Positions 4,949-33,649 of a stretch of DNA of 64,000 bases are shown here, piece after piece. Source of the DNA: Hydrogenophaga borbori. GTDB lineage: Bacteria > Pseudomonadota > Gammaproteobacteria > Burkholderiales > Burkholderiaceae_C. The stretch is taken from the NCBI RefSeq assembly GCF_003417535.1, contig NZ_QVLS01000013.1, positions 1 through 64,000 on the forward strand, in the 5' to 3' direction. Under the pieces are notes generated by a model that saw only the letters and a program-made list of their open reading frames with translations, was not told the origin of the DNA and ran no database searches. Both the position numbers and the translations under genes were made by a program. Numbering within the stretch: position 1 is the first letter of the stretch; every line of letters starts with the position of its first letter.

Positions 4949-5839
4949 TCAAGCCAGAATCGCAAGGGCGGCGCCCACCACCGCCACGATGCTGCCGATC
5001 CAGGCCTGAACCGGGAAACTCTCCCCGCGAAGCACAGACATCAGGAGGATGTACATCACCGGCGACATCGACGACAAGATCACGGCGCGCACGATCCCCG
5101 TGCTGGCCAGTGCGGCCAGCAGCAAGGTCATGCCGCCGATCGTGCTGACCAGCGCGCTCACCAGGACGATGGGCAGGTGGGCGCTGCCCTTGGCGCGCGG
5201 CGCCCCCCGCAAGACCAAGAACACGGGAAGGAAGGCGATGGTGGCAGCGAAGGTTCGCAGGAAAGAGGCAAAGAACGGCGCCACCCCGTCGACCACTTCC
5301 TTGGCCAGCAAGGCACCGGCGACCTGACAGGCGAGCGCCACGGCGACCAACAAGAACCCCAGACGGGCCCGCTCGGGCTTGTGATAGACACCGCCGGCTT
5401 TCTCGGTCGGCGCGCGGAAGATGACCGCCGCGTAGACCCCCGCGAAAGCCAGCGTCACGCCAAGCAAGGTCAGGGGCATCACCGCTTCGCGGAACAGGAC
5501 GCTGCCCAGAACGGCGGTCAGCGGCGCGTGCAGCGCGAAAATGACCGAAGACCGGCGCGGCCCCAGCAGGAACACCGCCTGGAACAGGGCCGCCTCGCCC
5601 AGGGCCACGCCGATCACGCCCGAAGCCGCCAGATAGGCCATCGCGCGCGTGTTGCCGAGAGGGACATCCCCGAGCGCGAACGCAATGAGAAACAGCGCCA
5701 GGGCCGCCGTGAAGAACCGGTACATCGAAAACCGGAACGTGCCGAGCGCCTCGACGCCCTTGTAGGCCACCAGGGGACCGATGGCCCAGCACACCGACGC
5801 ACCCAGGGCGAAGCCTTCGCCCAGGAAAGGAACGGCCAT
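4949..5839 (-). CDS. EamA/DMT-superfamily permease
   Basis: 296 residues with about ten hydrophobic segments arranged as two EamA repeats, the usual size and layout of drug/metabolite transporters in the inner membrane. Its start codon overlaps the NRPS stop (TGATG on the minus strand), so it is translationally coupled and co-transcribed with the NRPS. From context it probably exports the peptide product or an intermediate, or imports a precursor. The family gives no substrate. Confidence 0.85.
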   Translation of the reverse strand: MAVPFLGEGFALGASVCWAIGPLVAYKGVEALGTFRFSMYRFFTAALALFLIAFALGDVPLGNTRAMAYLAASGVIGVALGEAALFQAVFLLGPRRSSVIFALHAPLTAVLGSVLFREAVMPLTLLGVTLAFAGVYAAVIFRAPTEKAGGVYHKPERARLGFLLVAVALACQVAGALLAKEVVDGVAPFFASFLRTFAATIAFLPVFLVLRGAPRAKGSAHLPIVLVSALVSTIGGMTLLLAALASTGIVRAVILSSMSPVMYILLMSVLRGESFPVQAWIGSIVAVVGAALAILA

Positions 5840-8800
5840 CACACCACGGCCTCGGGGACCGCCGCGCTTTGGTCGGGGCTTTCGGTGCGGACGACAGCAT
5901 CCAGCGCGCCGATCCAGGCCGAGGCGAAGGTCTCGATGTCGGCGCGATCGAACAGGTTGTTGCGGTACTGGATCAGCAGGCTGGTGGCGCCGTCGTGCTC
6001 GCGGACGTAAGACATCTTGTCGAACTTCACGGCGAAGCCGAGGTCCGAGAACCCCCACTCGCTCGGGTCGGGCGGGCTGCGGCCCGCGCCGCAGAAGTTG
6101 AGGTGGCTGATGAAGATCGTGGTCAGCGGAAACCGCGATTGCTCGAACGGCAATCCGAGGTCGGCCACCAGCCGGTCGTACTGGTAGCTTTGGTGCGTCA
6201 TCGCGCAGGCGACGTCCTGCATGGTCCGGCGCACGTGGTCCAGCGCGCTCTGGCCAGCGTCGCGGTGGCTGCGCACGCAGACCAGCGAAATAAAGTTGCC
6301 CACGAGTTCCTCGGTGCCCTGGATCTCGCGCCCGGCGGCGGGCGTGCCGATGACGAGGTCTGGCTGGTCCAGCAGGCGGTGGAGGGCCTGGAACTTGGCG
6401 CTCAGGTAGAGGCTGAACTCGGTCACCCGGTGCGCGCGCGCGTAGGCCTTGACCGCCGCGCGGGTGGCATCGGGCACCTGGACGCAATAGCCCTGGCCTC
6501 GGTCGTGGCCCGGCCCGGTCCACTTCTCAGCGAATACGTGCTTGCGGTAAGGCGTCGCGAACACCCGCGCCCAATAGGCCTGCGCCTCCGACCCTGGCCC
6601 GAAGCGCATGGGTTCCTCCCGAGCGGCCCAGTCGGCATAGGCGAGGTAGTTGAACCGCGACGGGACGGGAATGGCCCGGCCCGCTTCGAGGAAGCTGCGC
6701 AACTGGGTCTCGACGAGGTTCATCGAAAAGCCGTCGCCGATCATGTGGTGCATGGCGAACACCACCGCCGACCGGCCACCCGGCAGGTTCGCGACACTGG
6801 CGCGAAACAGCGGCCAGGTGTCCGTGGGGATCTCGGCGTTGGCCAGGTCCAGTCGCAGGGCGTTCAGCAGTCGGGCGGCGGTCTCGGCTGGCTGGTCCGA
6901 GAGATCCTGCACCTCGATGTCGAGCGAGGTGGCGTCCATCACCGGCGTTTCCTTCAGCACGACGCCACCGTTGCACGGCACGAAGCTCAGCCGCATCGAA
7001 TCCTGGTGACGCGACAGATCAAGCAGCCCGCGTTCGAGTCGTCTGGCATCGACCGCATGGTCGAACTTCAGCACGCGCACCATCGTCGCCCAGGAACGGT
7101 TGCCCTCGGGCATGTAGATGTTCCACCAGCGGCGCTGCTGCGGCGACAAGACGTAGGTCTCAGCCCGGGAAAGGTCCGGAATCGCGACGTGCGCGCGCGC
7201 GGGCGAACGCTCGATCAGCGCGGCGATCTCGGCCAGGCTGGCCAGGGCGAAGACGTCCGCAAAGGCCAGCGACTTGCCCCACTCGTCCTCGATCTTGCCG
7301 ATCAGAAAGGCGACGTGGATGGAGGTGGCGCCCAGCCCGAACAGGTCGGCCGTCGCGCAGGGGACTTCGCAGGCCAGGATCGCACCGACCGTGCGGCATA
7401 CCCAGGCTTCGGTGTCGGTGGCGGCAGCCTCGCGCCCTTCGTCGGCTGGCACCAGAAGATCCACCAGGCGCGCCCGATCGATCTTGCCGTTGGCGTTCCT
7501 GGGAAACTGCGCCACCTTGCGCCAGATGGTCGGAACGATGGCCTGCGGCAGATGGCGGAGGGCATGGTCGCGGGGAGCGTTGTGGGGCAGTGCCTGGCCT
7601 GCCGGCCCGGCGATCCAGACCGCCGCCAGCCGTGGCTCGGACCCGCCGTGCGGCGTGGTGGCGAAGACGCAGATGTCCTGCGCACCCGGATAGCCCTGCA
7701 GCGCCTGAGTGACCTCGTTGGGGTGAACCCGGACCCCATTGATCTTCACCTCGTCGTCGGCCCGTCCGACGATCACCAGATCGCCCGCGGCCGACACCTC
7801 GCCCAGGTCCCCGGTGCGGTAGGACACGGTCCCGTCGCCGTTGCGCGCGAACCGCGCGTTCTCGGCCGCTGGGGCATTGATGTAGCCCAACGTGGCGTGG
7901 CGCGTGGTGATCACCACCTCGCGCCCCGGGCCGGCGCCGCCGAACCCGAACGACGTGCCCGGCAGCGGTCGGCCGACCGGGATCGGTTCGGGGTCACCGG
8001 CATCGACCCGTCCCACCCGAAAGAAGAACTTGGCCAGCGTGGTTTCCGAGGGGCCGTAGAGGTTCACGTACTCGGTGGTTCCCGCGAACGCCGCGCGCAG
8101 CTCGGCCACGGTGGCGGGATAGAGCTTCTCGCCCGCCAGGAAGACCAGCCGCAGCGGGGGAACGGCATCGCCCATTGCGCGGGCCCAGAGTTTGGCAACC
8201 GACGGCACCGCGTGGACGACCGTGACCCTCTCGCCGGCCAGCCAGTGCGCCGTGGCGCGCGGCGTCGCGAGGTGCCGGTCCGAGGGAATGACCAGCACCC
8301 CGCCGTGCAGCAACGGCAGGAAGATGTCGCGCAGCGACACGTCGAACCCCACTGGCGTGAGGAACGAGACGCGGTCGCTGGCCGACACGCCGAATTCCGC
8401 ACCTTGCCAACGGACGAAATGCACCAGTGCCGACACCGAACCGAGGATCGCCTTGGGCTGGCCGGTGCTGCCCGAGGTGAACATGACATAGCCGGGCCTT
8501 TCCCCGTGGTTCGGATGACCAGGAATCGCACTGGGCCGCCCCGTCGCGCGCTGGCCGTCGTCCGTGATGACGGCCTGTGGCGGCACGGTGTCCATCATCG
8601 TCTGGACGCGGGCCTCGGGAAGGCGGGGGTCGATCGGCATGGCCACGGCGCCCAGCGCCAGGACCGCCAGGAGATCGACCACATACCGCTCGGATTTTTC
8701 GCAGCGAATGGCGACGACGTCGCCGTCGCGCACCAGGAACGCCAACTCCCGCGCGCGCGCATCCACCAGGGCGATCAGCTCCCCATAGGACAGGGTCCGG

Positions 8801-8880
8801 CCGTCGCATTCCACGCAGGTTCGCATCCACTGGGCAGGCTGGACACAGCGGTCAAGCCGAAAGCAATCCGGAGGTGTCAT
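5839..8880 (-). CDS. Single-module non-ribosomal peptide synthetase, order A-T-C
   Basis: 1013 residues. Adenylation domain (about 1-470): TSGSTGQPKA core near 135-145, YGPSET 275-280, YRTGDLG 354-360, GRADDEVKINGVRV 372-385, and the catalytic NANGKID with K466. Carrier domain (about 485-560): GLGATSI with the phosphopantetheine Ser at 520. Condensation domain (about 575-1000): LSPQQRRWW, RHQDSMR, intact HHMIGDG at 711-717, VGNFISLV. There is no N-terminal condensation domain and no thioesterase or reductase at the end. The substrate-pocket Asp is present (D180 in GFDVSLRD), so an alpha-amino acid is likely. A phosphopantetheinyl transferase is not in the window. Start at 8880 has only a weak ribosome site. 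Confidence 0.93.
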   Translation of the reverse strand: MTPPDCFRLDRCVQPAQWMRTCVECDGRTLSYGELIALVDARARELAFLVRDGDVVAIRCEKSERYVVDLLAVLALGAVAMPIDPRLPEARVQTMMDTVPPQAVITDDGQRATGRPSAIPGHPNHGERPGYVMFTSGSTGQPKAILGSVSALVHFVRWQGAEFGVSASDRVSFLTPVGFDVSLRDIFLPLLHGGVLVIPSDRHLATPRATAHWLAGERVTVVHAVPSVAKLWARAMGDAVPPLRLVFLAGEKLYPATVAELRAAFAGTTEYVNLYGPSETTLAKFFFRVGRVDAGDPEPIPVGRPLPGTSFGFGGAGPGREVVITTRHATLGYINAPAAENARFARNGDGTVSYRTGDLGEVSAAGDLVIVGRADDEVKINGVRVHPNEVTQALQGYPGAQDICVFATTPHGGSEPRLAAVWIAGPAGQALPHNAPRDHALRHLPQAIVPTIWRKVAQFPRNANGKIDRARLVDLLVPADEGREAAATDTEAWVCRTVGAILACEVPCATADLFGLGATSIHVAFLIGKIEDEWGKSLAFADVFALASLAEIAALIERSPARAHVAIPDLSRAETYVLSPQQRRWWNIYMPEGNRSWATMVRVLKFDHAVDARRLERGLLDLSRHQDSMRLSFVPCNGGVVLKETPVMDATSLDIEVQDLSDQPAETAARLLNALRLDLANAEIPTDTWPLFRASVANLPGGRSAVVFAMHHMIGDGFSMNLVETQLRSFLEAGRAIPVPSRFNYLAYADWAAREEPMRFGPGSEAQAYWARVFATPYRKHVFAEKWTGPGHDRGQGYCVQVPDATRAAVKAYARAHRVTEFSLYLSAKFQALHRLLDQPDLVIGTPAAGREIQGTEELVGNFISLVCVRSHRDAGQSALDHVRRTMQDVACAMTHQSYQYDRLVADLGLPFEQSRFPLTTIFISHLNFCGAGRSPPDPSEWGFSDLGFAVKFDKMSYVREHDGATSLLIQYRNNLFDRADIETFASAWIGALDAVVRTESPDQSAAVPEAVV

Positions 8881-8948
8881 CGAATGTCCCGTTTCTCAAT
8901 AGGTTCGCCCGGTCGCTTTGGGCCGGACGCTTGCCGCGCCGTGCGCCA

Positions 8949-9953
8949 TCAACCGTTCACGATGCGGACTTGGGCCGGCAGCATGTGCACCTTGTGCATG
9001 TCCAGCGACCGGACGTTCACCGTCTTCATCAGCCAGCGGTTCATGACCGCGCCTTCGTCGCCGATGCGCACGACTTCCTTGTTGTGAATGCACTCGTTGT
9101 TCGCCGATCCGACGAAGTCGCCCTTGAGGATCAGCAGGCGCTTCTTCAGCGCATGCAGGGCACGCACGACTTCGTCCACCAGTTCCTGGGAGGCCCTGTC
9201 GAGGCCGACCGTTCTGTTCTCAAAGAAGCGAATGTCGTGGTCGGTCGCCCCGCCCAAGATGGGGTGGACGGGCGCCGGGCCCAGCCTCTTGTTCGGCGAC
9301 GACAGGGTCAGATCGTCGTAGGGCGTGTGAAACTTTTCCTCGCGCAGGCCCTTCAGGACGCGCTCGTCGAGGTACGCCAGCAGGTCGCGGTTGCGCACGA
9401 ACGAGGTATGGATCTCGTTCTGCGCAGAGGCCCGCAGCCCGAGAATGTTCACCCAGTCGGGGCGGACAAAGTGGTTCGCCAGGTCTTTGTGGAAGAAGAT
9501 GGACTTGGCCGCCTTCTGGGACTGCGTGGCCATCAGCGAGCGCATCGGGTGGATGTCCTGAAAGACATCGCCGTCGTTCACGTTGATGTAGCCGATCGGT
9601 TGCTGCCCCATCAGTTCGGCATAGAGCACCAAGAAGGCTTCGGCAACGTAGGTGGTCTTGCGGTTTCGCTTGTCGACGACCGGGTTGTCAAGGTCGAGCA
9701 TCGGCAGCTCGGGGTCGACCGGGCAGTTTTTGAGAAGCACGTACGGGTCGTCCAACGGATTGACGCCTCTTTTGGCGCGACAAAGGTTGCGGAAGTCCTC
9801 TGGTATGGCGCCGGTGTCGGCCAACAGCCGCAGAACGTCGGACTGAAAACGTGCATAGCTCGTGTAAGGATTGGTCCGAATCTCCAATAGGCGCCGGGTG
9901 AGCGCTTCATTGGCCTCATTCGAGAAGACGTAGTCCACTGTCATCTCCCACAT
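8949..9953 (-). CDS. Fe(II)/2-oxoglutarate-dependent oxygenase, clavaminate synthase/AsnO-VioC type
   Basis: 334 residues. The facial triad reads H155-x-D157 (FFHKDLANH) and H290 (NECIHNKE); R306 in NRWLMK fits the 2-oxoglutarate-binding Arg that follows the distal His in this family. The block FQDIHPM..ATQSQ..HKDLANH.RPDWVNILGLR resembles amino acid beta-hydroxylases such as AsnO and VioC. Family knowledge: these hydroxylate a free or carrier-bound amino acid for peptide antibiotics. The start at 9953 is chosen because AAAGGAG lies seven bases upstream; earlier in-frame ATGs lack one. It sits 68 bp before the NRPS on the same strand, so it likely supplies or modifies the NRPS monomer. Confidence 0.82.
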   Translation of the reverse strand: MWEMTVDYVFSNEANEALTRRLLEIRTNPYTSYARFQSDVLRLLADTGAIPEDFRNLCRAKRGVNPLDDPYVLLKNCPVDPELPMLDLDNPVVDKRNRKTTYVAEAFLVLYAELMGQQPIGYINVNDGDVFQDIHPMRSLMATQSQKAAKSIFFHKDLANHFVRPDWVNILGLRASAQNEIHTSFVRNRDLLAYLDERVLKGLREEKFHTPYDDLTLSSPNKRLGPAPVHPILGGATDHDIRFFENRTVGLDRASQELVDEVVRALHALKKRLLILKGDFVGSANNECIHNKEVVRIGDEGAVMNRWLMKTVNVRSLDMHKVHMLPAQVRIVNG

Positions 9954-10273: not shown

Positions 10274-11026
10274 TCACAGCGCCGGCGGCGGCGCTTCCCG
10301 CGTGACGAACCACAGGCGCATCTCGATCTCGACGGCGCGATCGCGGTGCGGCTCGACGAGCGCGAACACGGTGTCGTCGAGGGCTTCGGGCACCTGGTGG
10401 CCCAGGTCCAGCACGGCGGACTGCAGTGGCACGCGGCTGCGCGAGTCATGCACGGCCAGTTCCAGGCGTTCGAGCCTCAAGCGGGAATACCAGTGGGCGA
10501 TGCGCAGCACCGCCGCCACCGTGTGGTGGCCGAACCCTTGTCCCGCGGCCCTATCCGCCTGCGCATCGGTGCCAGGGTGGCACACGGTCACGAACACGCG
10601 CCCCCGCTGATCCAGCAGCGACTCGGCTTGCGCGAGGAAGCGACCCAACTCGGCCTCGCTGAGGTAGGGCGCCACGCGCACCAGGCGCAGGTAGGCCACC
10701 CGCCCCGAGAAAGGCATGGCTTCGTCCAAGCCCATGCCCTGGATGAAGCGCAAGTTCCTGCGCGCGGCGAACCACTGGCTCAGGCGACTCAGCACCCTCG
10801 GGCATTGCTCGATGACCACGACCTGGCCGAGGGGCACGGCGTCCGACAAGGCATTTAGGTCGCGCCCCAGGCCCGGGCCCACCTCGACCACGAGCGCGTT
10901 GGGGGCCAGCTGGCGGAGCTGCTCGTCGTCGATGGGAGGGACGGTGCGTCCGCCCTTGTGCCAGTGTTCGGCAACGTCCATCAGCTCCTGCGAAGGTGCC
11001 CCGGTCCAGGGGTCCCAGTACGGCAT
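10274..11026 (-). CDS. Putative SAM-dependent methyltransferase
   Basis: Class I methyltransferase signature VVEVGPGLGRDLNAL (SAM-binding loop) followed by VVVIEQCPRVLSRL for the ribose-binding acidic strand. 250 residues if started at the ATG at 11026 (MPYWDPWTG); an ATG at 11113 and a TTG at 11221 are open alternatives, and none has a convincing ribosome site. It lies upstream of the NRPS operon on the same strand but is separated by 320 bp. A role in the NRPS product is possible but not shown. The C-terminal REAPPPAL is low-complexity. Confidence 0.6.
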   Translation of the reverse strand: MPYWDPWTGAPSQELMDVAEHWHKGGRTVPPIDDEQLRQLAPNALVVEVGPGLGRDLNALSDAVPLGQVVVIEQCPRVLSRLSQWFAARRNLRFIQGMGLDEAMPFSGRVAYLRLVRVAPYLSEAELGRFLAQAESLLDQRGRVFVTVCHPGTDAQADRAAGQGFGHHTVAAVLRIAHWYSRLRLERLELAVHDSRSRVPLQSAVLDLGHQVPEALDDTVFALVEPHRDRAVEIEMRLWFVTREAPPPAL

Positions 11027-11243
11027 GGTGTGCCAGCGCTGGGCGTGCTGATGCAGCGCTGGCACCTGCACGGGTGGCCGCCCACCGGGCAAAGCCCGGG
11101 AACCTGCCCCCATGAGCAGTGGCTTGTTCCAAGTGAATGGTGGGCATGGACGGGCACGCAGGTACACGGAGATCCTTTGCTTGGCCGGGTGGTGGGGACC
11201 CACTGGGTGGCCAAGGATCAAAGAACGATCCTGCGCGGGTCGC

Positions 11244-15365: not shown

Positions 15366-15662
15366 TCAGCTCTGCTGCCAGTGATGCGGGAGCAGTTCGT
15401 CGATGCGGCGATACGGCTGCGTCGGCAGGCGTAGGAACACGTCCTTCAGATAGGCATACGGATCGTGCCCATTGGGTTTCGCTGATTGGATCAAGCTCAT
15501 GACGGCCGCGGCGCGTTGACCAGCACGCAGGCTCCCTGCGAACAGCCAGTTCCCTCTGCCCACGGCAATAGGCCGGATCTGGTTCCCCACGCAGTTGTTG
15601 TCCGCAGACAATTTGCCGTCGTGCTTGGAAATCCGCTCAGGGCCCAGAGCGGACTTCGATTC
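15366..15662 (-). pseudogene. IS66-family transposase, C-terminal remnant
   Basis: About 98 codons read in frame from just after a TAG at 15660-15662 to the stop at 15366. The motifs LSADNNCVGNQIRPIAVGR, NWLFAGSLRAG and NGHDPYAYLKDVF are the diagnostic end of IS66 transposases (usual NN.AEN.IRP...GR.NWLF.GS). The upstream 400 or more residues are absent. A sequence gtaagccggcaag near 15155 could be the terminal inverted repeat, as IS66 ends often begin GTAAGC. The fragment abuts the stop codon of the next small gene, so the insertion interrupted the end of the gene array. Confidence 0.85.
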
Positions 15663-16028
15663 CTACCGCTTCTTCCGGTAGAGGAAGCCAAATCGTTTCT
15701 CGTCGGCTACCGCCACAGCGCGAGCATTCGGCTGGGGAAGTTGCAACTCCAACGCCGCCTTGTTGACATCGTCTGGCACTACCAGTCCGTGTTTGATGTC
15801 GAGCTCTGCGAGGGCAGCGATGATGTACTCATCGTTGTCCGCATCATCGAGCCATCCAACCACGATGCGGACGCCATCAGGCGTATCTCCTAAAGTCCGT
15901 TCCGCAAACTCGATAAGTTCCTGTGCCCCAGCTTCGGAGTTGCTGAAAGTTGCTTCCGCGTAGCCGTTGGATTGCTCAACAGCGACCTGAAGATTGCCTG
16001 ATAGCACCAATATCGCGATGAGTTTGAG
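15663..16028 (-). CDS. Hypothetical protein, 121 aa (array gene 6)
   Basis: Starts at MLKLIAILVLSGNLQVAV; the frame is open to 16067 but the extra residues (MTVIGQKRTDLS) are encoded by the intergenic repeat. The protein has an alpha/beta pattern: GVRIVVGWLDDADNDEYIIAALAEL then IKHGLVVPDDV and ADEKRFGFLYRKKR. There is a loose resemblance to the N-terminal RuvC-like part of IS110 transposases, not strong enough to name it. Its 3' end runs directly into the IS66 remnant, and the repeat that follows other genes in this row is missing here. Confidence 0.5.
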   Translation of the reverse strand, partial: LKLIAILVLSGNLQVAVEQSNGYAEATFSNSEAGAQELIEFAERTLGDTPDGVRIVVGWLDDADNDEYIIAALAELDIKHGLVVPDDVNKAALELQLPQPNARAVAVADEKRFGFLYRKKR

Positions 16029-16040
16029 CATTGAGAGGTC

Positions 16041-16075
16041 CGTCCGCTTCTGGCCGATGACTGTCATGCTAGCTG
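16041..16075. repeat. Array repeat copy A
   Basis: Plus-strand GCTTCTGGCCGATGA followed by TGTCATGCTAGCTGA. It lies between two codirectional minus-strand genes and is one of six related copies in 15.6-18.8 kb. Confidence 0.75.
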
Positions 16076-16106
16076 AAGCAATAACGAGCGCTGTTCATAC
16101 CCTGGC

Positions 16107-16574
16107 TCAGCCAGTATTCCAGCACCTGAGCACCGTGAGAGGTCTCGGCTCGTCTGGCCAGACAGTGATGCGATACGTATCCTCGCCATCCATGCCGTTG
16201 CCGGAGATTGATGCCAGGCCGCTGAACTCCACGAGCACACCATAGTGCCCAGGTGAGACTTCATGACGAAGGACTTCGCCGCCTGTGCATTCATGCACTT
16301 GCAGAACTCCAGAAGGCAGGTGCAACGAGCATTGGACCGCATGGTCGATATACTCAACGCCCATCTGCGGAGCCACATCTTGCACCTTCAACTGGACGGG
16401 AACCGTCGTATTGCGGAGCGGACAAACCACTACTACGTTCTCCGCGACCTTCGCACGGCGCCGAACGTCTTCGTCACTCCAGTCGGTCGGGGCGTCGGGG
16501 CAAACCTGTCCATCCTGGATGTAGAACTGGCGGTAATCCGCAAATACATCGAAGTCGAACGTCTGAGTACTCAT
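16107..16574 (-). CDS. Small protein, possibly ComJ-like (array gene 5)
   Basis: 155 residues from the ATG at 16574 (a TTG at 16583 is the alternative). The beginning FDFDVFADYRQFYIQDG with WSDEDVRRR and later VQCSLHLPSGVL resembles the ComJ/NucA-inhibitor-like family, small beta-rich proteins found among nuclease inhibitors and polymorphic-toxin immunity proteins. The match is from memory of pattern only. No signal peptide or membrane segment is visible. Confidence 0.5.
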   Translation of the reverse strand: MSTQTFDFDVFADYRQFYIQDGQVCPDAPTDWSDEDVRRRAKVAENVVVVCPLRNTTVPVQLKVQDVAPQMGVEYIDHAVQCSLHLPSGVLQVHECTGGEVLRHEVSPGHYGVLVEFSGLASISGNGMDGEDTYRITVWPDEPRPLTVLRCWNTG

Positions 16575-16599
16575 CCGATTCAAGCTACGTTGAGTGACA

Positions 16600-16629
16600 G
16601 CTTCTGGCCGATGACCGACATGCTAGCTG
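16600..16629. repeat. Array repeat copy B
   Basis: Plus-strand GCTTCTGGCCGATGA then CCGACATGCTAGCTGA. It separates the SUKH gene from the ComJ-like gene. A gggcccag block follows at 16640-16647, as near copies C and E. Confidence 0.75.
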
Positions 16630-16663
16630 AGACTGACCCGGGCCCAGTGCGGATTCTTTTGGG

Positions 16664-17050
16664 CTAGCTCAGGGCCGAAAAGTCTGCAGCAATCTGGTCC
16701 AGTTCTTGGCTGTCGTGACGCCAGGCGAACACCTCCGCGCCCAAGTCTTCTCCCTTTGGCATGAAGACCAATAGGTCTCCCGCCCCATTGTTTGCAATGG
16801 CAACGGCGCCCTGCGGAAATCCCGGCCAATCTCTGGCTACCAGCGTTTCACTGACCACGCTGCTAAGGGTGCGAGCGAGTCGCTTTCTGTCCGAGGAATC
16901 CGCAACAGGGTGAATCTCCCAGTCGTCATCGGGCGTAGATACCGCGCCACCATTTCGCTTCCGCATGGCCGCTCGGTAGGTCGAAGGGAATCGTGTCTGA
17001 AGGTCAGATTCCGCCGCATCGATGAAGCGGTCATCCACGTCGAACGGCAT
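16664..17050 (-). CDS. SMI1/KNR4 (SUKH) family protein (array gene 4)
   Basis: 128 residues with the SUKH pattern: an N-terminal helix ending LQTRFPSTYRAAMRKRNGG, then DDDWEIHPV, and FPQGAVAIANNGAGDLLVFMP, the conserved 'A...G.GD...' core. Family knowledge: SUKH proteins are mostly immunity proteins against secreted nuclease and polymorphic toxins, or regulators. No toxin gene is adjacent, so this is an orphan. Length is normal for the family. Confidence 0.85.
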   Translation of the reverse strand: MPFDVDDRFIDAAESDLQTRFPSTYRAAMRKRNGGAVSTPDDDWEIHPVADSSDRKRLARTLSSVVSETLVARDWPGFPQGAVAIANNGAGDLLVFMPKGEDLGAEVFAWRHDSQELDQIAADFSALS

Positions 17051-17080
17051 AGGCTTGATTTATGTGAGGTCCGCAGTTCC

Positions 17081-17125
17081 GCTTCTGGCCGAAAGCACCA
17101 TGCTAGCTCAGGCTGGGCTGGGCCC
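17081..17125. repeat. Array repeat copy C
   Basis: Plus-strand GCTTCTGGCCGAAAGCACCA, TGCTAGCTCA and then ggctgggctgggccc. It lies between the membrane-protein gene and the SUKH gene. Confidence 0.75.
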
Positions 17126-17165
17126 AAAGCCGAGTGTCAGCTCTATTGGGAAAGGCACGCCTGGG

Positions 17166-17498
17166 CTATCGGACCAAGGTCATAACTGAGCCAGCGCACA
17201 CCATCATTCCGAAGGACACCAGCATCGCGCAGCAGACGTGATACGCCACGGGTCTGTCCGAGTGATTGATGACAGCGCCCCATCGGCGAAGCGGTGCCCT
17301 GCGGCTCCAATGGCGAATCAACATGGCGGTCGTCGTCAATCCAAAAGCCAGTGCCGTACTCGCAATGCCATACCGGTTCTGGTAGCCCGCCCAAATCGCC
17401 ACCACAAGCACGATGACGCAAACGCCACTGGTAACCCAGAGGTAGTCAAGTAGCCCTGGTGGCCTGTACTTAGAAGAGTCGCTCCCCAATACCTTCAT
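17166..17498 (-). CDS. Small membrane protein, 110 aa (array gene 3)
   Basis: Starts MKVLGSDSSKYRPPG from the ATG at 17498; longer frames would read through repeat D. Three hydrophobic segments are visible: YLWVTSGVCVIVLVVAIWAG, YGIASTALAFGLTTTAMLI and a third ending in SFGMMVCAGSVMTL. Inner-membrane location is expected. No family is recognised. Its 5' end lies 52 bp after the isochorismatase stop with repeat D between. Confidence 0.6.
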   Translation of the reverse strand: MKVLGSDSSKYRPPGLLDYLWVTSGVCVIVLVVAIWAGYQNRYGIASTALAFGLTTTAMLIRHWSRRAPLRRWGAVINHSDRPVAYHVCCAMLVSFGMMVCAGSVMTLVR

Positions 17499-17513
17499 GT
17501 GTTGTCGGATGCC

Positions 17514-17535
17514 CGCTTCTGGCCGAAAGCACCTC
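17514..17535. repeat. Array repeat copy D (short)
   Basis: Plus-strand CGCTTCTGGCCGAAAGCACC. The GCTAGCT half seen in copies A, B, C and E is missing, so this copy is truncated. Confidence 0.6.
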
Positions 17536-17550
17536 TGATTACCCGACCGC

Positions 17551-18102
17551 TTACACAGCCGTGACACTTAGGTCTTGGGCTGAGACGATGCGAACCCTGG
17601 GCCCAAAGCTGCGAATATTGGAGAGCGTTTCGTTGTGGTGTTGAATCACCTGCGGCGCGGACAGGTGCCGGTTTCCCATGCTGGTGTGCCCGTCACCAAC
17701 CAGAATGACAGGAAACCCCAGTGCAAGAGCTCTGCGAGTAGTGGTGTCGACGCAGAACTCGGTATGCAGGCCGCAGGCCACGACTTCTGAGACCGCGTGC
17801 CCCCTCAGCACCTGCTCCAGGTCGGTGTGATGGAACGAGTCAGGTGTTGTTTTTCGAACGCGAATGTCTGCTTCTGCTATCTGAAGGCCGTGGGCCAGCT
17901 GCCACGTATCGGCCCCAACCTCGAGAGGCCCTGATTTCGACTCGTGCTGAATGAAAACCACGATGCCTCCTGCGGCACGGACCTTCGCTGACACTTGATT
18001 GATTCGTCCAATAACTTGAGCCGCCTCGAATGCCGCGTACTCGCCTTCACAAAGGCCTTGCTGGACGTCGATTACAAGCAGAGCGGTAGTCAATTTGGGC
18101 AT
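17551..18102 (-). CDS. Isochorismatase-family cysteine hydrolase (array gene 2)
   Basis: 183 residues. The catalytic triad of the family is complete: D12 (LLVIDVQQG), K84 (RVRKTTPDSF) and C117 (HTEFCVDTT). The cis-peptide region before the Cys and overall length fit nicotinamidase/isochorismatase-like amidohydrolases. The substrate is unknown. It is the most enzyme-like member of the gene row and is flanked by repeats D and E. Confidence 0.88.
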   Translation of the reverse strand: MPKLTTALLVIDVQQGLCEGEYAAFEAAQVIGRINQVSAKVRAAGGIVVFIQHESKSGPLEVGADTWQLAHGLQIAEADIRVRKTTPDSFHHTDLEQVLRGHAVSEVVACGLHTEFCVDTTTRRALALGFPVILVGDGHTSMGNRHLSAPQVIQHHNETLSNIRSFGPRVRIVSAQDLSVTAV

Positions 18103-18149
18103 CCTTCACACTGGGAAACGTTCAGGAATGGGCAGGGCGGCGAACGACA

Positions 18150-18195
18150 GCTCCTGGCCGATGGCCGCCATGCTAGCTCATGCTGCGATGGGCCC
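18150..18195. repeat. Array repeat copy E
   Basis: Plus-strand GCTCCTGGCCGATGG, CCGCCATGCTAGCTCA and tgctgcgatgggcccg, the copy closest to C in its extended part. It lies upstream (in coding sense) of the isochorismatase gene. Confidence 0.75.
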
Positions 18196-18251
18196 GTAGT
18201 GGACATCGCTCATGTCAAAAGTGGACGTGGCCTACCACGGCTGGCGTTGAG

Positions 18252-18704
18252 CTATGTAGGCGGAAAATCCTCGTAGCATTTCGGCAAATAGCCCCAAATT
18301 CGCATCACGTCTTTGCGAACTTCAAACTCCAGACCAATCTGTCGGAGCAATGAGACAAATCGATCTGTGTGATCGATATAGGCGGAACGCGGGAGAAGCA
18401 TGCCAGGACGCGCACCGCCATCCTGATGAAGCCCGATATCAAGCCACTGCACACCTTTGAATGGGAACGGCAGGTGATAGAACCACTCAACGTCCCAGCC
18501 GGAAACACAGCCCTCTACCGACTTCGAACGATAAGACGGCCTCCAATCAGACATGCCACGAAAATAGGAAATGAGTTCGTTCCACTTCGTGTTGTTGGCT
18601 GCTCCGACCAACCCGCGAGAAGCTGCCACGGCACGCACATCACGCTCTTTGACACCTTCGGGGCAGGCATCTGCCATAGGGTACACATTCATGCGGGGCT
18701 CCAT
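18252..18704 (-). CDS. DUF6678-like protein (array gene 1)
   Basis: 150 residues if started at MEPRMNVYPM; an ATG at 18689 is also possible, and the more distal start at 18788 is rejected because that stretch is repeat F. The pattern NTKWNELISYFRGM, SGWDVEWFYHLPFPF, VQWLDIGL and a terminal RIWGYLPKCYEDF fits what I know of DUF6678 proteins, small orphan proteins often next to immunity genes. No signal peptide or membrane segment. Confidence 0.6.
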   Translation of the reverse strand: MEPRMNVYPMADACPEGVKERDVRAVAASRGLVGAANNTKWNELISYFRGMSDWRPSYRSKSVEGCVSGWDVEWFYHLPFPFKGVQWLDIGLHQDGGARPGMLLPRSAYIDHTDRFVSLLRQIGLEFEVRKDVMRIWGYLPKCYEDFPPT

Positions 18705-19063
18705 TGGGGAAGCGTCTGTTTGAGCAAGAAGCGCAATGTCCGCTCCTGGCCGAACGCGGAAGTCTAGCCATCGCATCGTTGCGCGCAAGCGGTCGACGTT
18801 GAAAGCCAGAATCCGAATGACTGGAAAGTAACGCAGATCGCAAGCTCAAGGCGTCACTCCAGCCGACCGCTCCCAGTCTGAAGCAGCCGTTGCAGCTCCG
18901 AAGTTCAGATGAAGCGACAGCGGAAACGACCAATCTGCTTCAGGCACGTCGGCCAGTCGCCTACCTCAACCTGGCGTGATCGTCAGCGCACGCTTTGCGG
19001 CTATCGCCACATGGTTCTCGGTGATCAACCGTTGGATAGCGGGCGGCCATCTGGGGATGGCCT
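18705..19063. other. Intergenic region with degenerate repeat sequence
   Basis: No gene is supported. It contains repeat F and, at about 18868-18960, further partial copies of related motifs (gaccgctcccagtctgaagcagccg, gcttcaggcacgtcggccag) that read like decayed relatives of the array repeat. The promoter of the gene at 19064 should lie at its right end. Confidence 0.4.
18738..18770. repeat. Array repeat copy F
   Basis: Plus-strand GTCCGCTCCTGGCCGAACGC then GGAAGTCTAGCC. It lies upstream of the DUF6678-like gene and is the first copy of the row in transcription order. Confidence 0.6.
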
Positions 19064-19672
19064 GTGTACCATCGGTCCGTGGATTTCCTTCTTCTCCTTC
19101 CCATCACGCTCGTCGCTTTATGGATCACCAAGGCCAGGCAGCAGCAACGGCGCATAGCCATCTTGGCCCGCTACCTGGACGGCCGCGACATCGAAAAGCA
19201 CATTGAGACGCTTTCGCAGGGCTACTTGCGCGCCCTGGGCGAATCAGACTCCACCCGCAGCGCGCAGGTTTGGGAGGTGTTGCGCGGGACCGAAGATGTG
19301 CTGAGCCGGCAAGTCTGCAAGCTGGCGGAGGACTTTGCGGGCGTCGAGCCTACGGCCACACGCGTGAGCAAGTTCCCGATCTGGTTGCCACGCTCGCCCG
19401 CGCTCGACAGGTCCTTCGATATGCGCGAGGCGCTGCGCATACACGCCCGCGGCATCTGCCGTGCGATCGAACGACAGGGCACCTCCGCAAAGGACCGCGC
19501 CTTTTCCATTCTGGCCGAGATGCTCCTGATGCAGCACACCTGTCACTGGTATTGCCGTTCGAAGTCCGTGGCATCGGCCCGCATGCTGGCCAGCCACCAC
19601 ACGTCCTACGAGCAAGTTGTAGGAGGCGTGCTGCCGCAGACACGACAGGAGTATCTTGAGCTGGTGTCCTGA
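19064..19672 (+). CDS. Hypothetical membrane-anchored protein, 202 aa
   Basis: The N-terminus VDFLLLLPITLVALWI is a single membrane helix followed by a basic stop-transfer (TKARQQQRR). The remaining ~175 residues are helical and soluble, with HIETLSQGYLRALGE and a helical C-terminal part with MLLMQHTCHWYCRS. I do not recognise a characterised family. It is the only plus-strand gene between the minus-strand row and the OmpA-DUF900 gene. Confidence 0.6.
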   Translation: MYHRSVDFLLLLPITLVALWITKARQQQRRIAILARYLDGRDIEKHIETLSQGYLRALGESDSTRSAQVWEVLRGTEDVLSRQVCKLAEDFAGVEPTATRVSKFPIWLPRSPALDRSFDMREALRIHARGICRAIERQGTSAKDRAFSILAEMLLMQHTCHWYCRSKSVASARMLASHHTSYEQVVGGVLPQTRQEYLELVS

Positions 19673-20133
19673 CAATGGGGAATGGGGTCTCTCGTGGAGT
19701 CAGCAAAGACGAGGCTGCATCTCATGGTGTCGTCGGTGGACGATGCGTTCCTTGCGCATGGTGAGCTGCTCGTGAATAGGGCCTCGTCATGTTCTTCGGT
19801 TGCTTCTGCTGCGAAGCCGAAGTCTGGGCTTTTGGGTCGGCTCAAGACTGAACGGAGACATTCGGTCCCTGAATGAAACTGTCAGCCCTTGTGCCAGAGG
19901 CGTACTTCGAGCGAGGTCTCCAAAGAGCTCGCTGCACAAAAGACAAAGATCGAATGGCCAAGGTTCTTGACAGCGGAACAGGAATCAGCCCACTACGCCC
20001 GCAAATGGCACTTCGGATTCCGCCCGATTGAGATCATGCCAAGCATCCGACATGCTAAGGATGACACGTCCAAGGACTCCGGGTAGTCTTATGCTGGGTC
20101 TGCAGTTGGTTCATCAAGCCATCGGGGGGGATC
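19673..20133. other. 461-bp region without a supported gene
   Basis: Short open frames exist on both strands but none has a ribosome site, domain or consistent codon use. The stretch ggcttttgggtcggctcaag..ggagacattcggtc at about 19828-19870 looks like another decayed intergenic repeat. The promoter of the OmpA-DUF900 gene should be at the right end, where ggggggatc precedes the ATG. Confidence 0.4.
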
Positions 20134-21786
20134 ATGCACCTTCGAATTCTCGTGGTACTTGGCTCTCTTTTGCTGGGTGGCTGCGCCAGCGTTCAGATGA
20201 AGCCGCAGTCAGATCCTCCGCCAGTTGGGCAAGTCGTGTCCCCCATTCCACATCCGGCACCTTCACCTTCAGTGCCGCCTCCACTGGCCAAGGCTTTTCC
20301 TCTATCACCGGCAGCAACTTCAGAAAAAGTCGCGTTCTCAGTCGATACTTTCTTTGACAGCGGCCAGTCCGTTTTGAGATCCGACGCCAAGGCCAAACTG
20401 GATGAACTGGTCCGCAAGACTTCTGATGTAAGTATTGAACTCATCATCGCTATTGGACATGCTGACTCTGTTGGCTCTGATGCCTACAACCAGAAGCTGT
20501 CGATATCGCGCGCCGAGTCCGTGAAGGCTTACTTAGTGAGCAAGGGAATCGAGGCCAATCGAATCTATGCCGAAGGTGAGGGCGCGGCGATGCCAGTTGC
20601 GGACAACGCGACAGCTAAGGGACGGGCCATGAGTCGACGCGTGGAACTTGAGGTTGTCGGTACCAGAAGTTCGAGCGGAGAACCCATGGAGTCGCGAGCC
20701 CCAAAGGGCGTCGTCTCGGTTTTTTATGGAACTACCCGTGCGAAATCGGGCCGGAACAGCCCCTATGCCTATTTCACATCCGACGAATCAACCACTGCTG
20801 ATCGCCTCACCCTTGGCCGTGTTCTTGTGAACGTGCCACCCAATCGCCGGAAGGCGACTATCCCTGAGCCAGATTTTTTCTCCGTCATTCTGGAGAAGGT
20901 GACGTCTAGTTCGGTCGCCAGCTTTCTCGCCATCACGCCGATTTCTGCAGCGAACCCGATGAGCGACTTCTCCTTCGCGGGACCCGTTGAGGAGTTGACC
21001 CCCGAAGACTTCCGCGATCGTTTGAGGTTATCGGCTGCGCTCGCAAAGGGAAGAACAGCCGTTGTCTACATTCATGGCTTCTCTAACAGTTTCAAGGATG
21101 CGGCGTTCCGCACAGCGCAGGTCGCATACGACTTGGCGGATTCCGATTTTCAGGTGGTGCCGGTCATGTTCAGTTGGCCATCTGATCCCGAAAAGCTTAA
21201 CTATGTCGGCAGCGGTGATCGACTGTGGGCAGCCGGAAAGTACTTCGCAAAATTCTTAGACGAAATTGCGAAAGTACAAGATATCGGTCGCATTCACATC
21301 ATTGCTCATAGCAAGGGAGCTCAAGTGCTTACCTACGCACTCGATGAGATTCGTGTCCCCAATCTTCTTGTCGACTCGGGATTAGGATCACCACCAGTTT
21401 CTAGGTTCAAACAGATAGTTCTTGCAGCGCCCGACATTCGTGCCCTTGACTTCGAGGTTCAAATCAGCCCGGCCATAAGGAGTCGTCATTCGGTTACAAA
21501 CTATGTTGCTTCGAACGATGCCGCTCTGCGCATAGCGAAGTTTGCCAATTCCGGCCCGCGGGCGGGAGACTCTGGTGAGGGTCTATGCCTAGTGCCCGGC
21601 GTAGAAACTATTGATGTTTCTTCCGTCAACTATCGACCCGGCGGCCACTCAAGCTTCGCGGATTCTGTTGAAGTGCTGGATGACATCCGGCGCCTGCTAA
21701 AGGGGGACAATGCGGAACAACGAGGCCTGCAGCGAGTTTCACGAAAGAACTTGGGATACTGGCTACTACTCCCGCCCAACAAGTAG
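20134..21786 (+). CDS. OmpA-domain lipoprotein fused to DUF900 alpha/beta hydrolase
   Basis: 550 residues. The signal peptide ends in lipobox LLGGCAS, then a Pro/Ser-rich linker. Residues about 68-175 are an OmpA-like peptidoglycan-binding domain (FFDSGQSVLRSDAKAKLDEL, GHADSVGSDAYNQKLSISRA, GRAMSRRVELEV). Residues about 185-520 are a DUF900-type hydrolase: VSVFYGTTRAKSG, VVYIHGFSNSFKDA and the nucleophile elbow HSKGA with S393. Expected location is the outer membrane, tethered to peptidoglycan, with an esterase-like activity facing the periplasm. Codon use and GC are clearly lower than the core genes, suggesting recent acquisition. Confidence 0.85.
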   Translation: MHLRILVVLGSLLLGGCASVQMKPQSDPPPVGQVVSPIPHPAPSPSVPPPLAKAFPLSPAATSEKVAFSVDTFFDSGQSVLRSDAKAKLDELVRKTSDVSIELIIAIGHADSVGSDAYNQKLSISRAESVKAYLVSKGIEANRIYAEGEGAAMPVADNATAKGRAMSRRVELEVVGTRSSSGEPMESRAPKGVVSVFYGTTRAKSGRNSPYAYFTSDESTTADRLTLGRVLVNVPPNRRKATIPEPDFFSVILEKVTSSSVASFLAITPISAANPMSDFSFAGPVEELTPEDFRDRLRLSAALAKGRTAVVYIHGFSNSFKDAAFRTAQVAYDLADSDFQVVPVMFSWPSDPEKLNYVGSGDRLWAAGKYFAKFLDEIAKVQDIGRIHIIAHSKGAQVLTYALDEIRVPNLLVDSGLGSPPVSRFKQIVLAAPDIRALDFEVQISPAIRSRHSVTNYVASNDAALRIAKFANSGPRAGDSGEGLCLVPGVETIDVSSVNYRPGGHSSFADSVEVLDDIRRLLKGDNAEQRGLQRVSRKNLGYWLLLPPNK

Positions 21787-22153
21787 CGAATACCTGCAGG
21801 CCGAGCCGAGCGTGATAGCGCACAGAGTTTTAGCCCGGTGGCAACTGCCGTGAATTGCTCGTCGCTATCGACTGACTCCATACGCCGTGAAGTTGGTCCA
21901 CCAGCACCGTCTGCCCGAGACTGGAGTCCGACATTCGTACCGCCAGCTAGGAGGCCGCTGTCGCCGAGAGTTGATGCCCGAGCGTAACTCAAGCAGGATG
22001 ACAGGCTCTGTACAAAATTCGGACGATGTCGCCGTACACGCCGCGGCACACAGCCACTTCCTGTTCGGGGTGGAGTTCTGCAACTCCGCGTTGGGCTGGC
22101 AGGAGGGCTAGGTGGAAAAAATGTGCAGGGCGTGCGTCACCAACTGCCGCAGC
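21787..22153. other. 367-bp intergenic region
   Basis: It lies between the convergent OmpA-DUF900 and mcrC genes. No gene, clear terminator or tRNA is seen; short open frames lack ribosome sites. Confidence 0.4.
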
Positions 22154-23449
22154 CTATGTAGCCATTCGCAGCGGACGATGGGCAAATCCCAGTCGCTCTA
22201 CACCTAGTAAGCGCTCGTTATCCAGATCGAATGGAAGTACTTCCAAATGCAGCCGTTCGTCGAAGTCGAACGCGTCGAGTGGGCTATGGAACGCCTCGGT
22301 GCGTGGATAGATCAACGCCATACGCCCAACGCCGCCAAGGTACTTCTGCCCATAGGCAAATAGTTGGTAGAAGTCCGCTTGGCTCAGGCCGTACTTGTCC
22401 ACCCGCTTGCTCCTATCCAGTAACTTCCACTTGGTGTCCAGAATCCAGCGCTGGGTGCCATCTGCGATGTAGATATCGGGCTCCAAACGAAAGATCGGCT
22501 TCTGCTGGTGCTCGCAAAGCGACTCGCTGCGGGCCGGCGTGCGCATTTCCAGACCTGGTGCCAGCGATGTGCGCAGGCAGCGTGCGACGAAGCGCTCGAA
22601 GAGCTTTTCCATCGGGAACAGCAGGCTGATGCCCTGGTAGTCACCGGCGACAGCCAAGGGCATGTGCTGATTCAGGATCAACTCGCACCACGGCTTGATA
22701 GGCCGGTAGCGCGCTAGCAAGCGGTCCTGCCCCCAGGCCCGGAAATCGGCCCATACCTGACGGCTGGACGGAATTTCAGCCAGTCGGAAGCTGAGTTCTT
22801 GGGCAAGGCGCCAGTGGTTGGCATCCTGGGTGCTCTGGCGCACGCGATCCAACGCCAGCTTCATCAATCGGTTCTCGGGCCGATCAGGCAAGTAGACCTC
22901 ATGTCGTACATGAAAGCGATGGTCGCGCCCGGGAGGCTGCCGCAGTTGCTGATTGAGATTTAGCTGCCCGCGCAGGAAAGGAAGTTCCTCGTTCACTCGC
23001 TGGTACTCGAAGCGCAGGCCGCGGCGGACCAATGTGTCTAGCTCCTGCAGGAAGCGTCCCATCACCCATTCGGACAAAGGCGCGTCGAACAGTTGCAACG
23101 AGGCCACGCTGACGTCGCGTGTCGGTAGATCCAGCAAGGCTAGCAACAGCTTGCGCAGCAGCGCTCGCGCCTCGGCCAAGCTACCGTCCTCAGCTTGATG
23201 CTTGGGCACGATCTCCAACACCGTGCCGCACGGCGTCTGGATAACGCCCACGAAGTTGTCCAGCTTCAGCCGCCGTTGTCCTTCCACCTGCAGCAGACGT
23301 ACGCCTCCTCGTGAGAAGCCCTCGCTCAGGAGGCACAAGTAGTCGAACGCCGATTCGCTGACCTGGGCGCAGTCCAGCGTCGCGGTCACTGATTCAGTGC
23401 AGAGCCACGCATGCTCGCGAACGCTGACGTTGCGCGGCACCGGCCTCAT
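22154..23449 (-). CDS. mcrC: McrC-family restriction nuclease subunit
   Basis: 431 residues. The N-terminal part (about 1-180) matches McrC 5-methylcytosine restriction subunits, with GVIQTPCGTVLEIVPKH and FLRGQLNL. The PD-(D/E)xK nuclease core is seen as LEPDIYIADGTQRWILDTKWK (catalytic D, then DxK). McrC docks on the McrB ring and cuts DNA. Its ATG overlaps the mcrB stop (ATGA), so the pair is translationally coupled. Confidence 0.92.
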   Translation of the reverse strand: MRPVPRNVSVREHAWLCTESVTATLDCAQVSESAFDYLCLLSEGFSRGGVRLLQVEGQRRLKLDNFVGVIQTPCGTVLEIVPKHQAEDGSLAEARALLRKLLLALLDLPTRDVSVASLQLFDAPLSEWVMGRFLQELDTLVRRGLRFEYQRVNEELPFLRGQLNLNQQLRQPPGRDHRFHVRHEVYLPDRPENRLMKLALDRVRQSTQDANHWRLAQELSFRLAEIPSSRQVWADFRAWGQDRLLARYRPIKPWCELILNQHMPLAVAGDYQGISLLFPMEKLFERFVARCLRTSLAPGLEMRTPARSESLCEHQQKPIFRLEPDIYIADGTQRWILDTKWKLLDRSKRVDKYGLSQADFYQLFAYGQKYLGGVGRMALIYPRTEAFHSPLDAFDFDERLHLEVLPFDLDNERLLGVERLGFAHRPLRMAT

Positions 23450-26391: not shown

Positions 26392-26519
26392 ACCAACGCG
26401 GGCGCGATGGACTTGGACTCGGAGAGGTCGCCGACTAAGTGCTTGTATTCGCAGGCATTCAGATTGGCGCGCAACTTGTCGGTGGTGGCCCAGAGAGCTT
26501 TCGCGATGACGTAGAGCAT
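26388..26519 (-). pseudogene. hsdM: Type I restriction HsdM N-terminal stump
   Basis: 43 codons from ATG 26519: MLYVIAKALWATTDKLRANLN then ACEYKHLVGDL. This is the conserved start of type I methyltransferase HsdM subunits (LW..ADKLR..M...EYKH.VL.L). The reading frame leaves the homology after EYKHLV and ends SESKSIAPALV. Its TGA overlaps the mcrB start as ATGA, so if translated it would couple to mcrB, which has no good ribosome site of its own. Confidence 0.65.
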
Positions 26520-26834
26520 AGGTAGATGGCGGTTTAGGGCGGTTGGCGCTTGGAGGATACCCTGGAGATCTCTGAGCGAACCAGCCTCTGAGAACGAGCC
26601 GAAAGACCGCTCGCCGCAAAGCTGTGATTGCCTGCTGTCCATTGTGGTTCGGACCTTGTTCCCGCGCGTCGAACTTCCGCAATCGCTGCGAAGCGGTCCG
26701 CCAGTCTCAGAGATGGAGTGACTACGTCCAGTCTCCAGCCGCCCCTCGCCAGTTTCAAAAACTACGCTGCGCCGCCGCACAAGCAAAGAGCACACGCCCT
26801 CACCCAGCTCTGCGCTAAGCATCCGTCCGCACAC
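26520..26834. other. 315-bp intergenic region upstream of the hsdM stump/mcrBC
   Basis: No gene is supported. It should contain the mcrBC promoter on the minus strand. Partial intergenic-repeat-like sequence (gcgaagcggtccgccagtctcag at 26690-26712) is present, related in style to the decayed repeats further left. Confidence 0.4.
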
Positions 26835-29047: not shown

Positions 29048-29512
29048 ATGCCCGTAGAACTCAAGGTCAACGGCCGCGCCGTGACCGTGGACGCGGCGCC
29101 CAACACGCTGTTGGTGCACGCCCTTCGTGAACACCTGCGCCTCACCGGCACGCACGTCGGCTGCGACACGGCCCAGTGCGGGGCCTGCACCGTGCACCTG
29201 GACGGCAAGGCCATCAAGTCGTGCAATGTGCTGCTGGCCCAGGTGGCCGGGCGCGAGGTGACCACCATCGAGGGCATGGCCGCCGCCGACGGGACCATGC
29301 ACCCCATGCAGGCCGCATTCAAGGAGTGCCACGGCCTGCAATGCGGCTTCTGCACGCCGGGCATGGTGATGAGCGCGGTGGACCTGTGCCAGCGCCACCC
29401 CGGCGCCAATGAGGCGCAGATCCGCGAGCAGCTGGAAGGCAACCTGTGCCGCTGCACGGGGTACCACAACATCGTCAAGGCCGTGCAGCAAGGCGCTGCG
29501 GCCATGAAGTGA
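29048..29512 (+). CDS. coxS: Molybdenum hydroxylase small subunit, [2Fe-2S] (CoxS-like)
   Basis: 154 residues with two [2Fe-2S] clusters: a plant ferredoxin-type set CDTAQCGAC...C (about 42-62) and an all-helical set CGFC...CRCTGY (about 102-140). This is the electron-transfer subunit of xanthine dehydrogenase-family enzymes. The order small-large-medium in this operon and its accessory genes match cox-type clusters. Start has a ccaggagacaacc ribosome site. Confidence 0.93.
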
Positions 29513-29533
29513 TCGCACACAAGGAGAACGACC

Positions 29534-31909: not shown

Positions 31910-31930
31910 GCCCTTCAAGGAGACAAGACC

Positions 31931-32721: not shown

Positions 32722-32722
<1 letters not shown>
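31931..32722 (+). CDS. coxM: Molybdenum hydroxylase FAD-binding medium subunit (CoxM-like)
   Basis: 263 residues. FAD-binding motifs of the family are present: AGGQTLIASLKQRL near 30-45 and TIGGSVANNDPAACYPSA near 112-130. It passes electrons from the iron-sulfur clusters to FAD and an acceptor. A purine-rich AAGGAGA precedes the ATG. Its stop codon overlaps the start of the MoxR-like gene (TGATG). Confidence 0.92.
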
Positions 32723-33636
<914 letters not shown>

Positions 33637-33649
33637 GCGCAAGCGCCGT

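Follow-up and report, generated by a model that had tools for sequence, protein, structure and literature searches.

The described systems closest to the locus studied here each share some of its parts. The locus is an operon of three minus-strand genes in Hydrogenophaga borbori, lying within positions 4949–9953 of the window, by which we mean the whole stretch of DNA analyzed (the first 64,000 nucleotides of contig NZ_QVLS01000013.1, assembly GCF_003417535.1). It encodes a 2-oxoglutarate/Fe oxygenase, a nonribosomal peptide synthetase (NRPS) made of one adenylation (A), one thiolation (T) and one condensation (C) domain in that order, and an EamA/DMT-type exporter. AmbB, an NRPS of the amb (AMB) system of Pseudomonas aeruginosa, is presumably also an A-T-C protein. 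The amb system resembles the operon in combining an NRPS having one T and one C domain with Fe/2-oxoglutarate oxygenases and a small-molecule exporter (PMC4357302). The operon has no counterpart to the second of the two amb oxygenases, to the further NRPS AmbE with its methyltransferase and thioesterase domains, or to the LysE-type exporter. Scanned for motifs in six frames, the window has a single C-domain motif that falls in a real gene, the operon holds one oxygenase, and its exporter belongs to EamA (PF00892) and is not of the LysE type. AmbB activates L-Ala, whereas the pocket code in the window differs in kind; this comparison is by description, not by sequence.

Three other systems bear on the NRPS. 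The first module of ACV synthetase activates aminoadipate, the kind of substrate predicted here, and presumably has a pocket code with Arg239 and His278; it differs in that ACV synthetase is trimodular, has a thioesterase and passes its product to isopenicillin N synthase, again a comparison by description and not by sequence. The first A domain of the zeamine synthetase Zmn16 is similar in pocket code, but it is part of a large NRPS/polyketide synthase (PKS)/fatty acid synthase line, and its substrate is given as a prediction (PMC3547906). SulI, the initiation module of sulfazecin synthesis, attaches glutamate through a gamma linkage to a small beta-lactam warhead (PMC11298585), but SulI works with the multimodular SulM and a thioesterase and uses D-glutamate, and no HXD oxygenase of the present kind enters the comparison.

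An earlier reading made from the letters alone (the sequence-only reading) had found no described pathway to match the operon, and no characterized cluster with the same three genes turned up in the open-licence PMC papers searched. Each of the domain types has been described before; in those papers we met no three-gene pathway built like this one. We find that the three genes very probably form a dedicated unit, and we tentatively propose that it is a small, horizontally spread, self-contained pathway to a two-part amide.

Conservation and spread of the operon

To find close relatives of the oxygenase, 84,980 species genomes were scanned with six exact peptide patterns, a search that recovers close relatives only. 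Eight loci were found: two in alphaproteobacterial metagenome-assembled genomes (L003 and L004), one in a metagenome-assembled genome of the cyanobacterium Hormoscilla (L010), four in Pseudomonas and one in Aestuariivita. In L003, L004 and L010, genes for the NRPS and the transporter lie downstream of the oxygenase gene, ordered as in the window. Counting the window's own genome, the compact oxygenase/one-module NRPS/exporter pathway proposed by the sequence-only reading is thus co-conserved in four genomes, and the outcome it had named as refuting, an oxygenase and NRPS not conserved together, is not what is seen. At 1e-5, neither this NRPS nor the transporter finds a match in the five remaining loci. 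Identities to the window for oxygenase, NRPS and transporter are 83, 71 and 73% in L003 and 81, 68 and 68% in L004. In Hormoscilla, they are 71% (over 105 residues only), about 51% and 55%.

The picture of a set of exactly three genes holds for the window but needs enlarging elsewhere. A phosphopantetheinyl transferase gene follows the transporter in both alphaproteobacterial loci (L003, 15261–16049; L004, 15262–15966; 78% identical to each other), and there it is part of the gene set. The window's genome has two phosphopantetheinyl transferase domains, both elsewhere, on contigs C12 and C35.

Across the three genes, the window and L003 are separated by a synonymous distance (dS) of 0.8–1.0 and a nonsynonymous distance (dN) of 0.10–0.20, and L003 and L004 by a dS of 0.54–0.67 and a dN of 0.04–0.10. 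In these two comparisons of moderate dS, dN lies about 5–15 times below dS; window–L004 dS (1.65–3.5) and the Hormoscilla dS values are at or beyond saturation. By these measures, the operon genes are under purifying selection. Since the order recurs in three of the eight loci and dN is far below dS, the arrangement is more than chance.

The operon is rare among relatives of its host. No orthologue was found in 59 congeners, several of whose genomes are incomplete, and therefore horizontal spread is likely. The modest divergence across classes is in line with such transfer. At an E value of 0.001, a search of 100 relatives gave two matches, the window's own genome and a 20-bit partial match (G029). 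The wider searches drew on samples of each taxon. In the family, three of 399 genomes matched at 1e-20, namely the window's own and two at 47% identity, whose neighbors are an SDR, an MFS protein and a protein without a Pfam match. In the order of L003's host, the matches were three of 390 (L003's genome and two at 31% identity), and in the class of Hormoscilla the sole match among 388 was Hormoscilla itself. A class-wide search with an NRPS alignment, scoring at most two candidates per genome among the rows listed, gave L003's genome and one other, with a 2483-aa frame.

The congener G028 was considered as an empty insertion site. There, the PhoD gene (ending at 4569 in the window) lies 9 bp from the OsmC gene (starting at 11236 in the window). 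The first codons of DUF2007 are kept and then run into a stop, so this may be a deletion, and we do not use it to date the gain. In the two short stretches at the ends that were compared by exact words, no direct or inverted repeat was found.

The oxygenase and the one-module NRPS

The metal and 2-oxoglutarate residues of the oxygenase are H155 (9491–9489), D157 (9485–9483), H290 (9086–9084) and R306 (9038–9036), all invariant across 12 aligned homologues. Although no Pfam family matches at 1e-3, the protein matches the solved structures of CAS1 (E 4.7e-11), lysine 3-hydroxylase (4.7e-10) and AsnO (4.5e-10). The sequence-only reading called it an AsnO/VioC-type oxygenase. The similarity to that superfamily, which includes clavaminate synthase (CAS), stands; the closer assignment does not. 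The metal motif here is HXD (H155-K-D157...H290) and not the HXE...H of the AsnO, VioC and clavaminate synthase hydroxylases. HXE is seen in four of four printed alignments to solved relatives (clavaminate synthase, AsnO and lysine 3-hydroxylase; the VioC motif is not among them), and the HXE of CAS is itself called unusual in PMC6097109. Identity is in the range of 25–35% or lower, and the equivalog cut-offs are missed by far (Cs1, 60 versus 450 bits; GntD, 54.9 versus 345; VioC, 36.3 versus 418.6). Because of the motif and these scores, we class the oxygenase, on sequence, as an outlying HXD...H variant of the superfamily. Its predicted structure is poor (mean pLDDT 57.1 from an alignment of 7 rows), as is that of the NRPS (47.1 from 4 rows), and no claim is built on either model.

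The NRPS matches AMP-binding (residues 20–310), PP-binding (493–556) and Condensation (574–999) above the Pfam gathering scores; Pfam gives no other domain in it, and AMP-binding_C is not matched. Its catalytic motifs are intact, with HHMIGDG in the C domain, LGATS in the T domain and NANGKID, lysine included, at A10. The A domain scores below the TIGR01733 cut-off (272.7 versus 317.4 bits). No thioesterase or reductase domain is detected in the protein by Pfam; no separate thioesterase search of the window was made. With A4 and A5 aligned by hand, the pocket code reads DVRHFALLAK in the NRPSs of the window, L003, L004 and L010. The code as read includes an Arg at 239 and a His at 278, a pair that may go with side-chain activation, though a similar code is listed for Asn. 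This pair is presumably shared by the side-chain-carboxyl modules of ACV synthetase and microcystin synthetase; no paper confirming their codes was found. Zmn16-A1 has the code DPRHLALLAK, equal at 8 of 10 positions, with 2-aminoadipic acid as its predicted substrate (PMC3547906). Since the code is near this predicted 2-aminoadipate code, our first guess, with about even chances of being right, is that the substrate of the A domain is acidic, an amino acid of the aminoadipate, glutamate or aspartate type. That it would do so through the side-chain carboxyl is a weaker second step and a somewhat doubtful one, modeled on ACV synthetase, which activates aminoadipate at the delta-carboxyl (PMC7147772).

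To see whether the NRPS works alone, we asked how many C domains the host genomes have. The search found one in L003's genome (4.0 Mb), the operon's own, and one in L004's partial genome (1.5 Mb). The window's genome has five matches, four of them on contig C12. Above the cut-off for NRPS adenylation domains, L003's genome has a single protein, which is of the type formyltransferase-A-luciferase-like-A-T and lacks a C domain; the operon's own A domain scores below that cut-off. Because L003's genome shows a single C domain, the module probably acts alone: a diffusible amine would take up the aminoacyl group, and condensation would itself be the release. That would explain the missing thioesterase. 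We rate it somewhat better than even that the acceptor of the C domain is free.

Related gene pairings, the proposed pathway and its alternatives

Parts of the operon occur elsewhere in other company. The Pseudomonas homologues of the oxygenase, about 52–53% identical, lie in loci without this NRPS. In L005, genes for an APH/choline-kinase-like protein and for an MFS protein come next after that of the 53%-identical oxygenase, and by eye L007 and L008 have open reading frames (ORFs) whose starts resemble those of the L005 neighbors. The L005 case implies that the oxygenase works without this NRPS. Since these loci have no carrier protein of this NRPS, their oxygenases probably use a free substrate, and the oxidized compound in the window may be a free acceptor rather than the activated amino acid. 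In L008 (Pseudomonas sp. TNT3, 8450–9444), the homologue is split over two overlapping frames, through a broken gene or a sequencing error.

The converse arrangement is found on an Azospirillum brasilense plasmid (L048). It is the top-ranked of 1836 plasmid records, and two of the 40 listed NRPS matches were examined (H21 and H22, the latter unannotated). Like the window, it has an A-T-C NRPS (35% identical; code DVRHLALLAK, one position off) whose gene overlaps an EamA gene; unlike the window, it continues with an FAD oxidoreductase, a protein without a Pfam match and a GST, and it is itself uncharacterized. No oxygenase of the window's clade is annotated within 33 kb, which implies that the NRPS works without this oxygenase. 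A Vibrio halioticoli plasmid (L021, 5010–15887) carries an A-T-C NRPS of 24% identity with the code DINHDGGVLK, after which come an oxygenase of 29% identity, an MFS protein and a double ATP-grasp protein; aconitase-type (LeuCD-like) genes lie beyond a regulator that by eye is LysR-like. These Vibrio and Azospirillum pairings suggest that an exporter is a regular partner, with the capping and oxidizing enzymes each exchangeable separately. The window's exporter has at least 15 plasmid matches among the matches listed.

More distant oxygenase relatives lie on plasmids of Staphylococcus epidermidis (L022, 6137–18648; 26%) and Streptomyces (L020, 320–11084; 32% to the window's). Both clusters have LeuA-like, isochorismatase-like, FAD-binding, cupin and aminotransferase genes, and L022 also has LeuC/LeuD. 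We read them as a modified-amino-acid pathway and make no tie to the one in the window. Alahopcin was considered as a product of clusters of the L020, L022 and Vibrio type, but the literature search yielded one paper, which by its title and abstract is on another subject.

The pathway that we propose would run as follows. The oxygenase would oxidize a free amino acid. The A domain would activate an acidic amino acid, possibly on its side-chain carboxyl, and load the T domain, phosphopantetheinylated by the dedicated transferase in the alphaproteobacterial loci and by an enzyme from elsewhere in the window's genome. The C domain would then transfer the acyl group to the amino group of the oxidized free amino acid, releasing an (iso)dipeptide without a thioesterase. 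That the oxygenase product is the acceptor amine is a tentative assignment; that the EamA protein exports the product is likely. The coupled group would keep an amino acid that is reactive or an antimetabolite masked while within the producing cell. Such a cap may be protective, by comparison with AMB, for which flanking residues are discussed as producer protection, with phosphinothricin tripeptides as a comparable case (PMC4357302).

Several points weigh against this proposal. Every chemical step, the substrates and the product are deduced from the genes, and the pocket positions follow what we take to be the GrsA numbering. The aminoadipate assignment of Zmn16-A1 is itself only a prediction, and DPRHVSLLAK, which agrees with the window's code at 7 of 10 positions, appears among asparagine-activating domains in PMC12283262. 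Some oxygenases of the SyrP type accept amino acids only when these are carrier-bound, as CysJ of the cystobactamid pathway hydroxylates carrier-bound and not free Asn (PMC7966384). All three other carriers of the gene set are metagenome-assembled genomes. The Hormoscilla oxygenase consists of the C-terminal third only; the 3 kb upstream hold nothing recognizable as the rest, and a search of the whole genome gave the C-terminal piece only. The Hormoscilla genome has 17 C-domain matches, and the single-C-domain counts are limited by the 1.5 Mb of L004 and by the lack of a completeness figure for L003. Among weaker A-domain matches in L003's genome, there may be a similarly odd A-T protein. The acceptor may instead be carrier-bound, on an undetected protein. 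Finally, the EamA proteins of Azospirillum and the window show barely any similarity.

The order put forward by the sequence-only reading, in which the oxygenase hydroxylates the amino acid activated by the A domain (free or carrier-bound) and the C domain then joins a free amine, remains viable and is nearly as likely as the free-acceptor model, though by itself it is an option that we would sooner doubt than accept. The oxygenase and NRPS are adjacent and co-conserved, the Vibrio plasmid pairs an oxygenase of this kind with a different A-T-C NRPS, CysJ offers a carrier-bound precedent (PMC7966384), and the nearest solved relatives include the amino-acid hydroxylases AsnO and lysine 3-hydroxylase. 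The code that points to an acidic amino acid tells against it, as do Azospirillum, with a nearly identical code and no such oxygenase annotated nearby, and Pseudomonas, with a close oxygenase (about 52%) and no such NRPS. It is improbable that the A-T-C protein instead acts as a loading module to another NRPS, the role that AmbB has for AmbE. The NRPS/PKS region on contig C12 (268–298 kb) and the C-domain-rich Hormoscilla genome would fit that role, but there is no other C domain in L003's genome or the partial L004 genome, and the same three-gene set is found across hosts with unlike NRPS content. For the same reason in L003, a partner NRPS acting in trans is weakened as a candidate.

Hydroxylated acidic amino acids bind iron, and L005 has ORFs upstream of the oxygenase homologue that by eye resemble a sigma factor and a TonB-type receptor, so a small metal-binding hydroxy acid or amide was also weighed. 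This is quite unlikely, as the ORFs listed for L007 and L008 include none like these, and no receptor gene is recognized beside the window's operon by eye, without a family search. Least probable by some way is a decaying or nonfunctional remnant; the 5'-truncated Hormoscilla oxygenase would agree with it, but the frames and motifs of the window, L003 and L004 are intact, and the genes there are under purifying selection.

A broader form of the two-part amide proposal is harder to credit, and we put it forward as rather unlikely. In it, the one-module NRPS would make an isopeptide of an acidic and a freshly oxidized free amino acid without a thioesterase, and the HXD-oxygenase clade would work with exchangeable exporters and capping enzymes (A-T-C NRPS, kinase-like protein or ATP-grasp ligase) for masked antimetabolites. 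If the proposed two-part amide pathway is right, it comes close to the smallest complete NRPS pathway open to testing: a single module in a set of three or four genes, lacking both a thioesterase and a partner synthetase. Two questions would become directly testable, namely whether handing an aminoacyl group to a free amino acid can be the normal release step of a C domain, and whether side-chain activation is marked by the Arg/His pocket code. An oxygenase clade shared among loci whose capping and export genes change would then be a guide to amino-acid antimetabolites.

Gene layout and surroundings

The features of the operon are collected in Table 1. The sequence-only reading had described three minus-strand genes with the last two overlapping by TGATG, and both coordinates and overlap are correct.

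Table 1. Operon features by window position.
Feature	Position	Strand	Basis
2-oxoglutarate/Fe(II) oxygenase, 334 aa	8949..9953	-	weak matches to CAS1, AsnO, lysine 3-hydroxylase
NRPS A-T-C, 1013 aa	5839..8880	-	Pfam domains above cut-off
adenylation domain, pocket code DVRHFALLAK	7453..8823	-	code same in 4/4 orthologues; positions hand-assigned
thiolation (carrier) domain, LGATS serine present	7213..7404	-	Pfam and motif
condensation domain, HHMIGDG intact	5884..7161	-	Pfam and motif
EamA/DMT-family transporter, 296 aa	4949..5839	-	EamA (PF00892) in two stretches
TGATG stop-start overlap, NRPS/exporter	5837..5841	-	NRPS stop TGA 5841-5839, exporter ATG 5839-5837

The oxygenase start is placed at the ATG at 9953, with AAAGGAG upstream at 9967–9961; a further ATG at 9983 is likewise open in the frame. 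A gap of 68 bp separates the oxygenase and NRPS genes. The oxygenase gene has a GC content of 0.605, below that of the NRPS (0.686), the exporter (0.676) and the whole window (0.679). Rfam gives 0 matches within the window. The six-frame motif scan of the window, a motif scan only, finds no MbtH-like motif in an open frame; the sequence-only reading's statement that MbtH and a second NRPS are absent agrees with the scan as far as the window goes, but further NRPS modules lie on contig C12. There, an NRPS/PKS-like region at 262–300 kb (L043, L044) includes a 4233-aa NRPS frame, and a phosphopantetheinyl transferase lies about 41 kb from it.

Upstream of the oxygenase and in the same direction is a methyltransferase-like gene (10274–11221, minus strand; Methyltransf_25, 23.4 bits, below the gathering score). 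A congener search with this stretch gave short weak matches only, and the gene is not recognized beside the operons of the other loci. Farther along, 15600–26700 has a GC content of about 0.55–0.63, below the rest of the window, with several short genes, and is island-like by composition only. By eye, genes at 29048–36500 and 42494–50400 resemble a CO-dehydrogenase-type cluster and a Kdp potassium system.

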